A stretch of 64,000 nt of DNA from Bacillota bacterium (GTDB lineage: Bacteria; Bacillota; Sulfobacillia; JAJZYS01; JAJYTV01), in assembly GCA_021793645.1 (NCBI GenBank), contig JAJYSJ010000008.1:1-64000 (forward strand). The letters run 5' to 3'. The translations under genes were made by a program, and so were the position numbers. Below are positions 1 to 5,291 of this stretch, piece by piece (position 1 is the stretch's first letter; every line of letters begins with the position of its first letter). Under the pieces are notes generated by a model. That model saw only the letters and a program-made list of their open reading frames with translations, had not been told where the DNA came from and did no database searches.

Positions 1-786
1 GCGCCCGATGCGAAAGCGCGAACGCAGCCGGGAGAGCAGCGCCACGAACGCCTTCGCGTCGTGGAGGTTCCCTGGGAACACTTCGTGGCCCATCGGCACA
101 CCATCGCGGGTGACGAGCAGACCCACCGAGATGAGCCTGCGGTCGTAGCGCTTCTCCTTGCTCTTGCCGTACTGCGCGAGAGCGCCACGGGTCTGCCCGT
201 GGAAGTAGGTGTTCGTCGTATCCATCAGCACCAGGTCCAGGACCGGCGCGAAGAGCTGCTGCGTCCGGTTCCAGAGCGCCTGCTCGATCACGTCTTTCTG
301 CTCCTCCAGGAGATCCAGCGCCTGATAGAAGTGGTGCAGCGCGAGCCCTTCGAACTCCGGCGCGTAGACAGACCGAAGCCAGCTGCGGCAGGTGGCACGC
401 TTGGACTGCGGCGCCATCAGCCTGGCCGCGACGAGGGCGAACGCCGCCTCTGAGAGCGGCATCTGCGTCTTCCGGCTCGCCGCCCGCAGCACACCCTCGA
501 TGCCGAGATCCCGCCAGAGGCGGCGGAGGACGGGCAACGCCCCAAGCACGCGGCAGTCCTGCAGTCCCTCCGCCTCGCTGTGCGGATCCAGCACAAGCGC
601 ACTCTGCGTCAGTCCGGAGAGCCCCTGCACCATGGCGTCGATGCGACTACGGTCGAGCTGATCGGCACGGCCGAGGCTGAGGACGGTGCGCTGGACCACC
701 TTGCCGCGTTCGCGGGTGGTCTCGACGAGCAGGAGGTATTCGTAAACCTTGCCGTTCTGGTGGACCCGTTTAGTTCGTACAAACAT
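1..786 (-). CDS. IS1634-type (IS4-like) DDE transposase, C-terminal part beyond window
   Basis: The minus strand is open from an ATG at 784-786 to the window edge, giving about 262 residues with no stop. The N-terminal part resembles IS1634/IS4-type transposases. The first catalytic Asp is probably D189 in LVLMDTTNTYFHG, followed by a conserved block (VTRDGVPMGHEVFPGN). The remaining DDE residues lie outside the window, so intactness cannot be judged. The element sits directly downstream of a SIR2-like gene in the same orientation, and that gene's last ~45 codons do not look like SIR2, so the insertion probably truncated it. I could not fix the terminal inverted repeat. Confidence 0.8.
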   Translation of the reverse strand, partial: MFVRTKRVHQNGKVYEYLLLVETTRERGKVVQRTVLSLGRADQLDRSRIDAMVQGLSGLTQSALVLDPHSEAEGLQDCRVLGALPVLRRLWRDLGIEGVLRAASRKTQMPLSEAAFALVAARLMAPQSKRATCRSWLRSVYAPEFEGLALHHFYQALDLLEEQKDVIEQALWNRTQQLFAPVLDLVLMDTTNTYFHGQTRGALAQYGKSKEKRYDRRLISVGLLVTRDGVPMGHEVFPGNLHDAKAFVALLSRLRSRFRIGR

Positions 787-829
787 TGCACTCTTACTCT
801 ACCAACTACGAATCGTTTTGGCAAGCACA

Positions 830-1783
830 CTACACGGCAGCACAAGTTATCCACATATCCACAGTATTGACACTACACCTTGACCCGTTTTCGCACCTCA
901 AAACAGCGTGCGGGCGAGAAAAACCTCGTCCGAGGGCGTCCGGCCGAGGTCTCTTGGTAGCTTTTAGGGTATCCCGTTCAAACTCGAGTCTGATAAACGT
1001 CGGTGTCAAGAACAGCGGTTCCAGCAGCGGACGGTGCGTTGCCCCCATGTCAGGAAAACATCTCGGACACTCGAACGGGTTGTAGCATCCAAATTCAGCT
1101 ACTGCGTCCTCGCTTACGAAGATACTGTGACAGCGTGGGCATGTCAGCCAATTAAAGGACCCATGGAGCTTCAATAATTTTACATTAGATCGGGGCAACG
1201 ACTCTTCAATCTCAGCATAACTGCCCTCTCTGAACCACTCGACCCCAGCTCCGTAGTCCGGAACGACTTTCCGACTGTCTAGCGCTTGCCTCACTGCTCG
1301 GTCCCAAACCGTATCCCAGTTCAATGAAATAGTTGACCAGTTCTCATCGTGGCTCTGCAACAGTCGGTCTGCCAGAGCGCGATAAGGCTCTAGTGGAGCC
1401 GCGGTCTGCCGATGGTTCACATATGTAAAGAGGCAGGCGTCTAGATAAGTTCGCACAGCCGCAGTTCTTTTCCAATCGTAATATGGGAGCCATTCCATGT
1501 TCATAACAGCGTTATCTACAACAGTGTAGACGTCTTCGAGGGTGAGGCTATCAACCGCCAGTTCATCGTCTTCTAACAGTTGGCCTCGGTCTTCGCCTCG
1601 TTGCAGGAATACTGCATTAATGAACTTGATAACCTCTGTCTGCGCCTTTAGGAACTGGCTGCGATTGCGATCCTGTTGTGGCAAACTGAAGGAAAGCATG
1701 TCCTTCAATATCGCGGACTGCAGTGGCACTCCCGCGCTTGCCGAGAAGCCAGCACCCACAACCAGCACCAATTTCTCGCTCAT
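830..1783 (-). CDS. SIR2-like NAD-binding protein, C-terminus disrupted by IS
   Basis: The protein belongs to the SIR2-like group common in anti-phage systems, where the domain usually hydrolyses NAD+. It shows the dinucleotide-binding start GAGFSASAG at residues 10-18, SLNWD at about 153-157, KLHGS at about 205-209, and two CPRC pairs near 215 and 239 that could hold zinc. The ATG at 1781-1783 overlaps the TGA of the upstream gene (ATGA), so an earlier start is unlikely and translation is probably coupled. From about residue 277 the sequence loses family character and runs into the flank of the transposase gene, so the C-terminal part is probably lost and the protein may be inactive. NAD+ cleavage is inferred from the family. 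Confidence 0.75.
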   Translation of the reverse strand: MSEKLVLVVGAGFSASAGVPLQSAILKDMLSFSLPQQDRNRSQFLKAQTEVIKFINAVFLQRGEDRGQLLEDDELAVDSLTLEDVYTVVDNAVMNMEWLPYYDWKRTAAVRTYLDACLFTYVNHRQTAAPLEPYRALADRLLQSHDENWSTISLNWDTVWDRAVRQALDSRKVVPDYGAGVEWFREGSYAEIEESLPRSNVKLLKLHGSFNWLTCPRCHSIFVSEDAVAEFGCYNPFECPRCFPDMGATHRPLLEPLFLTPTFIRLEFERDTLKATKRPRPDALGRGFSRPHAVLRCENGSRCSVNTVDMWITCAAV

Positions 1784-3126
1784 TGTCCTTGCGATAGGCT
1801 TCTTAGAACGTCCGTCCACGTCTTGCAGTGCCGGACCTCGGCGAAGCCAGCCTTATCGAGATAAAACTCATACGTTCTGCTCAGCTGCGCTATTACTCCT
1901 TCCAAGGATTGGCCTTCACCAGTCTCAGCGTATTCTCGAAACTTGCTCCACATGTAATGTCGTACGCACTTATCGTGGGTGTCAGGGTCGGGGTAGTCCA
2001 ACGTGACGACTTGGTACTTCCGCTGGAATGTCACTGGGTGCGATTTTCCATACGCTCCGAACGCTACGTCAGGGTCCGTATTTTCGCGCATAACCTCCCT
2101 GCACATCTCGCATTTGCACACGTTTTGTTGATACGCGTCTTTAGATTCAAGAAAAGGCTTCACTAGTCGATAAGCATCTGGATACCGAACTCGCTTGTGC
2201 ACGTCAGGATAGTAGAACCTGGATACCGGAAGTCCGCCCACCGCAGGAATCACAGACCTATCTTCACCATACTCTGGGCCGTGGCACACTCCAGTCAGAT
2301 TCAACTGCATGAATCTCATAATTGCTACGCTAAAGTACGACCCATAGAGCATGGTGATGGGCCGCATCTTCCCAAGATCCCTTATTAAAGCGCCGTAAAA
2401 GTATAGTAGATCCTCAGGAGCGTTATGTTCAGAGAACTCACTTATCCATAGAAGTATAGTTGACACGGGTAGGTTACCGTATTCTGTCACAATTCGGTCT
2501 ATCGCCTGCCGATTATACAGAAGCTCCTTCTCTATGACCAATTCAGCATAGACTTGACTCTTTGGAAACGCCTCCGCGCATGCCTTGGCTAGTTCAACAT
2601 TGACTGGCAGCCAGTCAGCGAAAGTTTCTGAGTCCATGTAATAATACGGCGCTACTATCGCAAGGGGCGTCAGGGGTCGGATGCCCATGAACTCGTAATA
2701 TTTTGTAAGACCTTGCTCTTCTGCCCGATCGAACAACGTCTTCTCTTGAAACTCCCCTACTCGACGAGCGAACTCCCGCGTGACCTCGGTGTCCGCAAAG
2801 TCATCCGGAGTCACTACTCGTTCGGCGAGCACCTTGTTCCTGATCGGCTCTCCGTAAATGTTAAGGAGTTTTGTCATCGATGCACGGAGCTTGGGCTTGC
2901 CGTCCTTACCCTGTGTCATTAATAAGGAGATGTCATGTTGAAAGGCATGTGTTTGGGGATCGATTATGCAGGCTTTGTTCTGCGCTGGCTCCGCGAGAAA
3001 TGATGCCATTGCCGACGCTGTGTGCGCTAACATATTAGCGTTGACGACCAACACGTCATATGTCCCTAAGAAGTCTCCAGTAAGGTACTTTTGCTCTGCG
3101 TGGGTACCGAATCTAACCAGGTGCAT
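1780..3126 (-). CDS. tRNA-guanine transglycosylase-like (DpdA-like?) protein
   Basis: This 448-residue protein has landmarks in the order found in the queuine/archaeosine transglycosylase fold. They are IIDPQTHAFQ at about 54-63 (where TGTs have the D-S-G-G-F-Q catalytic segment), AVGGLPVS at about 295-302 (TGT: GGLAVGE), and a zinc-like CKCEMC at 337-342 with CVRH near 387-390. TGT homologues act on tRNA, but the DpdA branch inserts 7-deazaguanine into DNA. Which substrate applies here is unknown. The ATG at 3124-3126 is preferred because AGGAGGT lies 8 bases upstream; an in-frame GTG at 3147 lacks this. It is the third gene of a four-gene operon and overlaps the SIR2 gene. G+C is clearly below that of the housekeeping genes, suggesting transfer. 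The family call comes from motifs only. Confidence 0.5.
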   Translation of the reverse strand: MHLVRFGTHAEQKYLTGDFLGTYDVLVVNANMLAHTASAMASFLAEPAQNKACIIDPQTHAFQHDISLLMTQGKDGKPKLRASMTKLLNIYGEPIRNKVLAERVVTPDDFADTEVTREFARRVGEFQEKTLFDRAEEQGLTKYYEFMGIRPLTPLAIVAPYYYMDSETFADWLPVNVELAKACAEAFPKSQVYAELVIEKELLYNRQAIDRIVTEYGNLPVSTILLWISEFSEHNAPEDLLYFYGALIRDLGKMRPITMLYGSYFSVAIMRFMQLNLTGVCHGPEYGEDRSVIPAVGGLPVSRFYYPDVHKRVRYPDAYRLVKPFLESKDAYQQNVCKCEMCREVMRENTDPDVAFGAYGKSHPVTFQRKYQVVTLDYPDPDTHDKCVRHYMWSKFREYAETGEGQSLEGVIAQLSRTYEFYLDKAGFAEVRHCKTWTDVLRSLSQGQ

Positions 3127-3150
3127 CAAGCGCACCTCCTGTCTCACCGG

Positions 3151-3549
3151 TCACCGGCGAACTCCGTCCAGATAAGACCTAAGCCAGTCGCGAGCAACAC
3201 CCCAGATTTCGTCAGATTGGGGCGCTTCAACAATCTCCTCGAATGGCCAGTCCCCATGGTCAGAGTACAGGAATAGGCCAACCTTTGCCATCTTAAATGC
3301 CTCCCTCATCTTCGGGGTCACTGCTCGAGGTGGAAGGCACACATAGGCTTTGTCGGCCACGAGCAGATGATCACGTGCCTGTGATAATGCCCGCTGCCAA
3401 TCATGTAACTTGAACTCTATTGAAATTATCGCGTCCCCAGATCGCAACACTACGTCTATGCATCGCGACATAGCGGGCACACCTAAAAAAACCTCAACGT
3501 CACTGAGGCGGGCAACAGCAGACTCGATCAGATCCTGCTCAGTAGTCAT
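3151..3549 (-). CDS. Small PD-(D/E)XK-like nuclease
   Basis: The 132-residue protein carries a compact arrangement compatible with a PD-(D/E)XK core: D32 in CIDVVL, then 13 residues later IEFK (E45, K47), with predicted beta strands around both. A second motif, KAYVCLP, resembles the strand that follows the active site in VRR-NUC and Holliday-junction-resolvase-like enzymes. The ATG at 3547-3549 overlaps the end of the upstream gene by 11 bases. The stop lies 24 bases before the next start, so the gene belongs to the operon. Whether it cuts DNA or RNA, and whether modified or unmodified, cannot be read from sequence. It could also be a nuclease-fold binding protein. Confidence 0.5.
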   Translation of the reverse strand: MTTEQDLIESAVARLSDVEVFLGVPAMSRCIDVVLRSGDAIISIEFKLHDWQRALSQARDHLLVADKAYVCLPPRAVTPKMREAFKMAKVGLFLYSDHGDWPFEEIVEAPQSDEIWGVARDWLRSYLDGVRR

Positions 3550-4144
3550 ACGCTCTCTGTGACAAGATCTCATCGCGAATTTGCGACTCTTCCGCCATTT
3601 TGGGGTACTTACTATACACGTATTGCAGGAGTCTGCGTAGGCTTACACCTGTACACATCTTCTTTAGTCTGTGTAATCCGTCCCTCTGCCCGTCGTTCAG
3701 GTGTGGCCATAGCGTAGTTTCAACGAAGTTTGTTCCACGTTCGCTCAAGGAGAATACTTCGGGTGTGTACGCAGAGGTTGAAAACTGGTTGTCATCCGGA
3801 CCCTCTTCATCACGCCACCACTGAAGTTCCAGTGCTTCCTCAGCACTTGCCTCTTGGGCACCTGAACTCTCTACAGTAATGAAGCCTAGGTTTTGCAGAA
3901 ACTCTATGTCTGTGTATACCTTGGGTGCGAATGGACCGAAGTGGTAGGCAGTGAATTCAGGCAGGACATTCTCTGGGATTAGTTTTCCAAAGCGGAAACT
4001 CTCCCACACTTCCTTCTCGAAGAGGAATACCATTTTAGTTATACGTGTGCGGCCCTCTATTGGTTCGCAGAGAACTCCACGGAATCCCTTGGCATAAAGA
4101 AGCAGGAGGATGAGGTCCTTATCAGAGAGTTTTGTCTGCTTCAC
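3539..4144 (-). CDS. YwgA/Panacea-like (DUF4065-type) protein
   Basis: This 201-residue protein resembles the YwgA / SocA-like 'Panacea' group. It has an early helix block with ITKMVFLFEKEVW, then FTAYHFGPFAPKVYTDIEFL and a following GFI. That is the characteristic arrangement where a conserved F-G-P-(F/Y) turn precedes a helix. Family members act as antitoxins or as modules of defence systems. The gene starts at GTG 4142-4144 with GGGAGG six bases upstream and is the first gene of the operon that continues with the nuclease-like, TGT-like and SIR2-like genes. It could be the regulator, antitoxin or sensor; the sequence does not decide. Confidence 0.5.
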   Translation of the reverse strand: MKQTKLSDKDLILLLLYAKGFRGVLCEPIEGRTRITKMVFLFEKEVWESFRFGKLIPENVLPEFTAYHFGPFAPKVYTDIEFLQNLGFITVESSGAQEASAEEALELQWWRDEEGPDDNQFSTSAYTPEVFSLSERGTNFVETTLWPHLNDGQRDGLHRLKKMCTGVSLRRLLQYVYSKYPKMAEESQIRDEILSQRAYDY

Positions 4145-4407: not shown

Positions 4408-5019
4408 TCAGACGCCGTCTCTTCGTAACAGGCGCTTTACGGTGGTCCGCCCGATGCGGAGCAGCCGCACCGCTTCCCGCTGCGTCAGCGCTCCCTCGAG
4501 GAGCTGCCGCCTAACGTGCGGCCACGCTGACCGTACACGCTCACTACGATCTTCGGCCTTGGGGCGACCAATGGATCGGCCTTCCCGCCGAGCACGCTCC
4601 ATACCTGCCTGCACCCGTTCGCGGACGATCTCCCGCTCGAGCTGCGCGTAAGCCACCGTGATATAGTAGAGGGCCTCGCCGAATGGGCTGGTCGTGTCCA
4701 GTCAAGGCTCCTGGTTGGAGCGGGGTCCGACTCCCCATCCACGCAGGCGCTCCAGCGTGTTCGCGGCGTCCAGAACCGATCTGAACGCCCGGTTCATGCG
4801 CCAGACAAGCACGAGGTCCACCTTGCGTCTGGCGGCCTGGTCGAGAAGCTCTCGCCAGGCCGTGCGTCGCCGAAGATCGGTGGCGGATGCCTGGTCGATG
4901 AACTCGCCCGCCACCTCGAACCCCTGCACCGCCGCGAACTCGCGCAAGGGCAGGAGCTGCGTCTCAGGGTTCTGTTCGCGGTCAGTGGTGGACACTCGCG
5001 CATAGACCGCGCAGCGCAT
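4408..5019 (-). pseudogene. Serine recombinase (resolvase/invertase) with in-frame stop
   Basis: The N-terminal part has the resolvase signature YARVSTTDRE, with catalytic Ser about residue 10, and VDLVLVWRMNRAFRS. The start ATG at 5017-5019 has AGGAGGTG just upstream. The frame is broken by TGA at 4702-4704. After it the same frame continues with LDTTSPFGEALYYIT, AYAQLEREIVRERVQAGMERA and a C-terminal helix-turn-helix (TQREAVRLLRIGRTTVKRLL). Recombinases of this type have a residue, often Trp, at the stop position (QEPW-LDT), so a single TGG to TGA change explains the break. It sits beside the defence operon and was probably its mobility gene. Confidence 0.8.
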
Positions 5020-5090
5020 AGCAGTCACCTCCTGAAAACACAGAGACCGCCCGGAGGCGGCCTCAGGAAAAGGTTGGAGCTCCCTCCGAA

Positions 5091-5291
5091 TTATCGAACC
5101 GGCGCGACCATCAAAGCTACTAGGAACAGTGATCCAAACACGACGATCTTGATCCACATTCGGACTCTCTGGTACCGTAGCTGAGCCTCCAGCTGGTCAG
5201 TGACCAGGCAGCGGCGTCGGAGCGAGGTTATCGAGATCCACTCTAAGGTGACGACCACGCTTCCCAAAACAAGCAGAACCCGCCATTGCAT
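5091..5291 (-). CDS. Small two-helix membrane protein, hypothetical
   Basis: The reading frame gives 66 residues from an ATG at 5289-5291. It has a hydrophobic segment near the start (VLLVLGSVVVTLEWI), a charged middle, and a second hydrophobic segment at the end (IVVFGSLFLVALMVAP). No good ribosome site is visible. It lies between the recombinase pseudogene and an IS3 remnant on the opposite strand and may be a decayed or spurious frame. I do not recognise a family. Confidence 0.3.
   Translation of the reverse strand: MQWRVLLVLGSVVVTLEWISITSLRRRCLVTDQLEAQLRYQRVRMWIKIVVFGSLFLVALMVAPVR

Follow-up and report, generated by a model that had tools for sequence, protein, structure and literature searches.

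A disrupted four-gene set from a Sulfobacillia bacterium with a predicted TGT-fold protein and a PD-(D/E)XK partner: a possible new family of virus-defence or toxin-antitoxin system

At the start of contig JAJYSJ010000008.1 of a Sulfobacillia bacterium (Bacillota; assembly GCA_021793645.1), of which positions 1 to 64,000 constitute the window analysed here, four open reading frames designated p1 to p4 form a gene set that has the appearance of a virus-defence or toxin-antitoxin system belonging to a new family. Two of its products, p2 with a PD-(D/E)XK nuclease fold and p3 with a predicted but divergent tRNA-guanine transglycosylase (TGT) fold, recur together in bacteria, on haloarchaeal plasmids and on viral contigs, in most loci joined by p1 and accompanied by effector genes that change from one locus to another. 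An initial annotation of the window, made from the sequence alone, had recognised a candidate defence operon with Panacea-like, PD-(D/E)XK, TGT-like and SIR2-like products, and this description is supported in all but the integrity of p4. The features of the locus are as follows.

3539..4144, minus strand: p1, 201 aa, SocA/Panacea-like antitoxin-type protein
3151..3549, minus strand: p2, 132 aa, PD-(D/E)XK nuclease fold; D32, E45, K47 and Q57 invariant
1780..3126, minus strand: p3, 448 aa, divergent protein of predicted TGT fold; CxCxxC...H zinc site, conserved D56
994..1819, minus strand: p4, truncated SIR2-like NADase-type gene, about 275 residues left, including N167 and H219
1..993, minus strand: insertion sequence (IS) that interrupts p4 and ends at 993
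4411-5157, upstream of the operon: serine recombinase remnant, split over two frames

All four frames lie on the minus strand where the initial annotation had placed them, and their tight spacing was reproduced: p1 and p2 overlap by 11 bases, p2 and p3 are 24 bases apart, and p3 and p4 share an ATGA overlap if p4 starts at the ATG of position 1783. The start codon of p3 is ATG, with a GTG at 3147 as a possible alternative upstream. Equally confirmed are the lower G+C content of the operon (0.47-0.53, vs 0.60-0.67 outside) and the debris of mobile elements on both of its sides, namely the IS on the left and, on the right, a serine-resolvase fragment at 4705-5157 (PF00239, 5.5e-19).

The AlphaFold2 model of p3, built from an alignment of 13 sequences, has a mean predicted local distance difference test score (pLDDT) of 91.7 and a predicted template modelling score of 0.90, and its best Foldseek matches in the PDB are tRNA-guanine transglycosylases (1.4e-5). 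Structural alignment gives a VIA Z of 21.1 against archaeosine TGT, including its tRNA-bound form 1j2b, and of 19 or more against the Zymomonas enzyme, extending over about 300 residues at 3.4-3.7 A with 7-10% identity. A TIM-barrel TGT fold with an inserted zinc subdomain is therefore predicted for p3, as the initial annotation had suspected. Searches of sequences and profiles, which that annotation had suggested against TGT and DpdA, found no such kinship: none of 12 p3 homologues matches PF01702 or any other Pfam TGT model, the p3 profile aligns with the canonical TGTs of carrier genomes at an hhalign probability of 1.1, phmmer and hmmsearch against PDB sequences produced no TGT link, and PADLOC no Dpd match. 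More generally, searches in Pfam, NCBIfam, PADLOC 2.0 and PHROGs gave no meaningful match for any member of the p3 family, and the comparison with the viral models of BFVD returned no match at E 1e-3. Among the three motifs that had been taken as TGT landmarks, CKCEMC corresponds to zinc ligands (C337, C339 and C342, completed by H390) that are invariant in the main p3 branch and missing from some proteins of the kinase branch described below, and D56 of IDPQTHAFQ fits D102 of the TGT motif DSGGFQ when mapped by strand order. GGLPVS, on the other hand, is probably not the TGT motif GGLAVG, because the model puts it in its one low-confidence loop, beyond the predicted barrel strand 8. Strand 8 itself reads GVxHGxEYGExR, with an invariant His (H282) and Glu and no Asp, so that the canonical nucleophile position (D280 of Zymomonas) is apparently a His in p3, as judged by strand order and not by superposition.

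The model of p2 (AlphaFold2 pLDDT 95.8) likewise has the PD-(D/E)XK fold that had been proposed for it, with VIA Z values of 12.5 to 3dnx, 9.8 to EndoMS, 9.2 to XisH and 8.7 to AF1548; the catalytic motif D..ExK is intact and its D32, E45 and K47, together with Q57, are invariant in 12 homologues. In PD-(D/E)XK proteins of the kinase branch (L039:2423-3115, L037:5069-5740, L056:1399-2061), a winged-helix-like segment apparently separates the motif Asp from ExK. The assignment of p1 as Panacea/SocA-like is a weak one: its homologues reach PF13274 (SocA_Panacea) at 6.6e-5, 6e-4 and 0.0017, just under the gathering cut-off, while the window copy has no match in Pfam; haloarchaeal homologues bear the public annotation SocA/DUF4065.

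The fourth gene is matched by the PADLOC SIR2 profile at 1e-7, and alignment with seven homologues shows H219 to be invariant and N167 to be present in six of them. Of about 370 residues, the homology extends to about residue 278 and stops precisely at the IS boundary; the reading frame as called, 830-1819, continues through 830-993 in IS DNA that is not SIR2. Missing is the C-terminal quarter, which in relatives holds a GYSLPxAD..LRxLLxR stretch and was not found in the rest of the assembly. Further copies of the segment 700-993, with 98% and 82% identity, are present elsewhere in the genome on contigs C48 and C71, and both matches stop at 993; we conclude that the IS fills the left end of the window and has interrupted the SIR2 gene. 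The transposase frame, running from 786 to the contig start, appears IS1634-like by eye and found no match in Pfam. Therefore, the SIR2 domain with catalytic Asn and His, present in the SIR2 partners of other loci, is incomplete here, and the window copy is probably a remnant that lost its effector, given the cut by the IS and the absence of the C-terminal part from the assembly, even if p1, p2 and p3 keep their full length and conserved residues.

Relatives of p3 were sought in genome contigs, whole genomes, plasmids and viral contigs, and the loci surveyed with profiles. They occur in the phylum of the window, in Acidobacteriota, Planctomycetota, Patescibacteria, Kryptoniota/Bacteroidota and Actinomycetota, as well as on Haloarcula plasmids and prophage-like IMG/VR contigs. 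In 23 loci p1, p2 and p3 lie next to one another, with p1 as the conserved 5' gene. Some of these loci are related pairs (L014/L015, L013/L019, L049/L050); together they come from six or more bacterial phyla as well as from haloarchaeal plasmids and viral contigs. Six more loci, which form a sister branch, have p2 and p3 but no p1, and another two (L009 and L052) are truncated at the end of a contig. Homologues of p3 thus co-occur with the other genes of the proposed operon, SIR2 among them in ten loci. This recurrent grouping is not due to chance. Pairwise distances of p1, p2 and p3 across loci agree (r 0.77-0.90, permutation p 0.0001), and the loci cluster by effector rather than by phylum, as in the case of a Patescibacteria locus bearing SIR2 that groups with Planctomycetota, apart from the Patescibacteria with a transmembrane (TM) protein. 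The lone exception to the linkage of p2 and p3 is a Gordonia plasmid (L038:3878-7087), where a p3-like gene has no PD-(D/E)XK neighbour; it adjoins a gene for an APH-like phosphotransferase (PF01636, 2.4e-10). The family is uncommon: counting seed genomes and both branches, it is present in 3 of 398 genomes in the phylum of the window and, for two other groups, in 3 of 380 and in 9 of 392. Named phage genomes yielded no relative of p3 at the limits used, and the viral contigs no match to the profile of the PIN branch.

Mobilizable plasmids are among the carriers, as are prophage-like contigs that encode a CI-like repressor. In L014:4977-9740 and L015:5072-9759 the system comes directly after a CI/S24-like repressor gene, with p2-p1 and p3-SIR2 arranged as convergent pairs. 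Neighbouring genes encode type I specificity subunits, HsdR, type III Res-like proteins, Mrr and an Abi_2 protein, an association that implicates the set in defence by its company, short of proof.

What changes along this distribution is the effector: SIR2 in 10 loci, a protein with 2-3 TM segments in 11, a Ser/Thr kinase in three and a PIN ribonuclease in two. SIR2 follows p3 in nine loci, while in Haloarcula sinaiiensis a distinct SIR2_2 protein stands in that position; SIR2_2 scores above the cut-off in L014. Directly downstream of the SIR2 gene of one Patescibacteria locus lies a patatin-like phospholipase (PF01734, 2.8e-39; L004:4882-5775). The TM type, found in loci without SIR2, is a protein of 170-270 aa with two to four hydrophobic segments, whose gene lies between p1 and p2, where start and stop codons overlap. 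Complete operons of the SIR2 type are found, for example, in Thermanaeromonas and Scalindua, and one of the TM type on Arthrobacter pSI-1. The sister branch, whose homology to p3 is supported by hhalign (99.5%, E 1.4e-22), has as partner either a PIN domain (5e-15) or a protein kinase (1.4e-35, 1.7e-33) and retains the PD-(D/E)XK gene; the kinase of L056 was called by eye, Pfam giving no confirmation. On a Priestia megaterium plasmid (L037:3071-5104) the Ser/Thr kinase is fused to the p3-like TGT-fold domain (5.6e-50), with a convergent PD-(D/E)XK gene. The initial annotation had seen SIR2 as the output of the system, which is right for one architecture; the SIR2 of the window is broken and other loci use other effectors.

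In functional terms, these observations raise a question: What would a fixed nuclease-fold and TGT-fold pair do beside a toxin that is so freely exchanged? The explanation we favour, at about even confidence, is that the locus represents a degraded version of a modular system resembling abortive infection or a toxin-antitoxin pair. Its core would be p2 and the remodelled TGT-fold p3, joined in most loci by the Panacea/SocA-like p1 and by an exchangeable toxic effector, be it a SIR2-type NAD+ hydrolase, a small membrane protein, a PIN ribonuclease or a Ser/Thr kinase. We infer that p2 and p3 are the sensing part, jointly recognising or processing a mark of infection in nucleic acid: the TGT pocket of p3 may read a guanine-like base or the end of a tRNA or DNA, and p2 may cut or grip the strand. 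In the manner of Panacea domains, which can counteract dozens of kinds of toxin (PMC8832971, PMC10440598), p1 would keep the effector inactive until the signal of infection frees it and the cell is stopped, with loss of NAD+ as the putative output of the SIR2 version. Concomitantly we consider, more tentatively, that the set might be a new class of immune system common to different domains of life, in which a repurposed TGT fold and PD-(D/E)XK protein act as a sensor reading nucleobases or nucleic acids that controls interchangeable effectors (SIR2, membrane pore, ribonuclease or kinase). The purpose in defence is deduced from anatomy and context, that is, from the linkage of p1, p2 and p3, the swap of effectors, the carriage by plasmids and prophages, the restriction and Abi neighbours and the Panacea precedent. 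Several points weigh against it. Restraint by Panacea cannot apply throughout, given that the kinase and PIN branch has no p1; p1 reaches Panacea only near the Pfam cut-off; and three p1-p2-p3 loci (L018, L019, L054) have no recognisable effector. Moreover, sequence does not separate defence from the maintenance of plasmids or prophages, both protection and the toxicity of the effectors are predictions, and p2 and p3 could have a housekeeping role in their rare carriers, against which mobility and effector swap speak.

That ambiguity between defence and maintenance leads to an alternative which we deem unlikely, namely that the set is a toxin-antitoxin module holding plasmids and prophages in place, with defence as a by-product at most and p2 and p3 as extra antitoxin or regulatory parts. 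It would account for the Panacea-type p1, for toxins such as PIN, SIR2 and TM proteins and for the carriage by plasmids and prophages, and the papers on PanA draw no sharp line between toxin-antitoxin and defence functions (PMC10440598); yet four genes with a conserved nuclease and a TGT-fold protein of 450 aa are heavy for plain addiction, and many copies are chromosomal, beside restriction or Abi genes. Rather less probable, in our opinion, is a restriction-modification system of the Dpd kind, whereby p3 would put deazaguanine in host DNA as a self mark, p2 would cut unmarked DNA and SIR2 or the TM protein would serve as back-up killer. TGT has a DNA-modifying homologue in DpdA (PMC6884629), TGT genes are found in BREX-related systems (PMC12839542), the models give p3 a TGT fold with a zinc site and p2 an active-looking PD-(D/E)XK site, and restriction genes are common neighbours. 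However, mapping by strand order places no nucleophile Asp at the end of barrel strand 8, p3 has neither a Pfam TGT nor a PADLOC Dpd match, and the 132-aa p2 has no recognition domain; no genes for preQ0 synthesis or other 7-deazaguanine functions were found among the neighbouring genes read in the loci, and a full-length QueC match is absent in 7 of 11 carrier genomes. On the same grounds, that of p2 excepted, the handling or sensing of 7-deazaguanine that the initial annotation had put forward is weakened to the point of being unsupported.

Very improbable appears a surveillance of tRNA, in which the TGT-fold protein would read anticodon loops and p2 or the effector would act when phage enzymes damage or deplete tRNA. 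The best structural matches of p3 are indeed TGTs acting on tRNA, the tRNA-bound 1j2b included, and PIN ribonucleases are among the swapped effectors; but a common fold does not reveal its ligand, RNA binding by p3 is putative, and the C-terminal tRNA-binding domains of archaeosine TGT are unmatched in p3. Two relations of p3 with its host were also considered and rejected. Dependence on host preQ0 does not hold as a rule, in view of the QueC count above; nor is p3 a general substitute for the host TGT, because ten other carrier genomes own a canonical one, even if none (PF01702) was found in the genome of the window (G000, 96.3% complete) by the same search that matched in 14 of 14 control genomes.

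Returning to the modular system that we favour, it would represent, if true, a further independent case, beside CBASS Cap10 and Dpd, of queuosine-type machinery recruited to immunity, and a protein family nameless in all four libraries searched. It would be a system of bacteria and archaea in which a fixed core of p2 and p3 and a swappable effector render sensing and killing separable in the laboratory; the p3 profile can be used for finding more copies. The initial annotation knew of no named system with this combination, and indeed the searches in Pfam, NCBIfam, PADLOC and PHROGs revealed none; the open-licence literature searched has no description of it, though one elsewhere is possible.

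How does this gene set compare with known systems? As described in PMC11996544, Cap10 of type IV CBASS has a TGT-family fold that was remodelled away from tRNA modification for anti-phage defence and stands alongside a killing effector, to which p3 is likened by description; a ligand-binding role for p3 like that reported there for Cap10 is, by analogy, a good lead. CBASS needs a CD-NTase and the QueC-like Cap9, whereas neither was recognised by eye among the neighbours of p3 loci, no dedicated CD-NTase profile having been run. Dpd resembles the present set in having a TGT fold, that of DpdA, in a defence-type cluster with nucleases (PMC6884629), but the neighbouring genes read in p3 loci include no DpdB-K partners, toxic effectors being found instead, and p3 differs in its lack of profile matches and apparently in its nucleophile position. 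BREX-related capture systems also have a TGT homologue inside a multigene conflict locus, yet they are built on PglZ, HerA, STAND and GNAT proteins (PMC12839542), none of which belongs to the conserved set here. The effector swap has a parallel in PanAT, where a small Panacea-like protein lies beside exchangeable toxins, including membrane toxins and nucleases (PMC8832971, PMC10440598). PanAT, however, consists of two genes, while here Panacea is tied to a fixed pair of nuclease-fold and TGT-fold proteins and the toxin may sit three genes from the Panacea-like gene. The SIR2 defence systems, namely Thoeris ThsA, DSR1/2, SIR2-HerA and the short pAgo SIR2-APAZ, share with our loci a SIR2-like domain with conserved Asn and His, likely to be an NAD+ hydrolase effector, but the sensor part here is a different one, with no ThsB, HerA, Argonaute or DSR C-terminal domains. 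Each building block has its precedent, Panacea, SIR2, the TGT fold in defence and swappable toxins alike, and it is the TGT-fold/PD-(D/E)XK core that, if shown to act as a sensor, would be categorically new.

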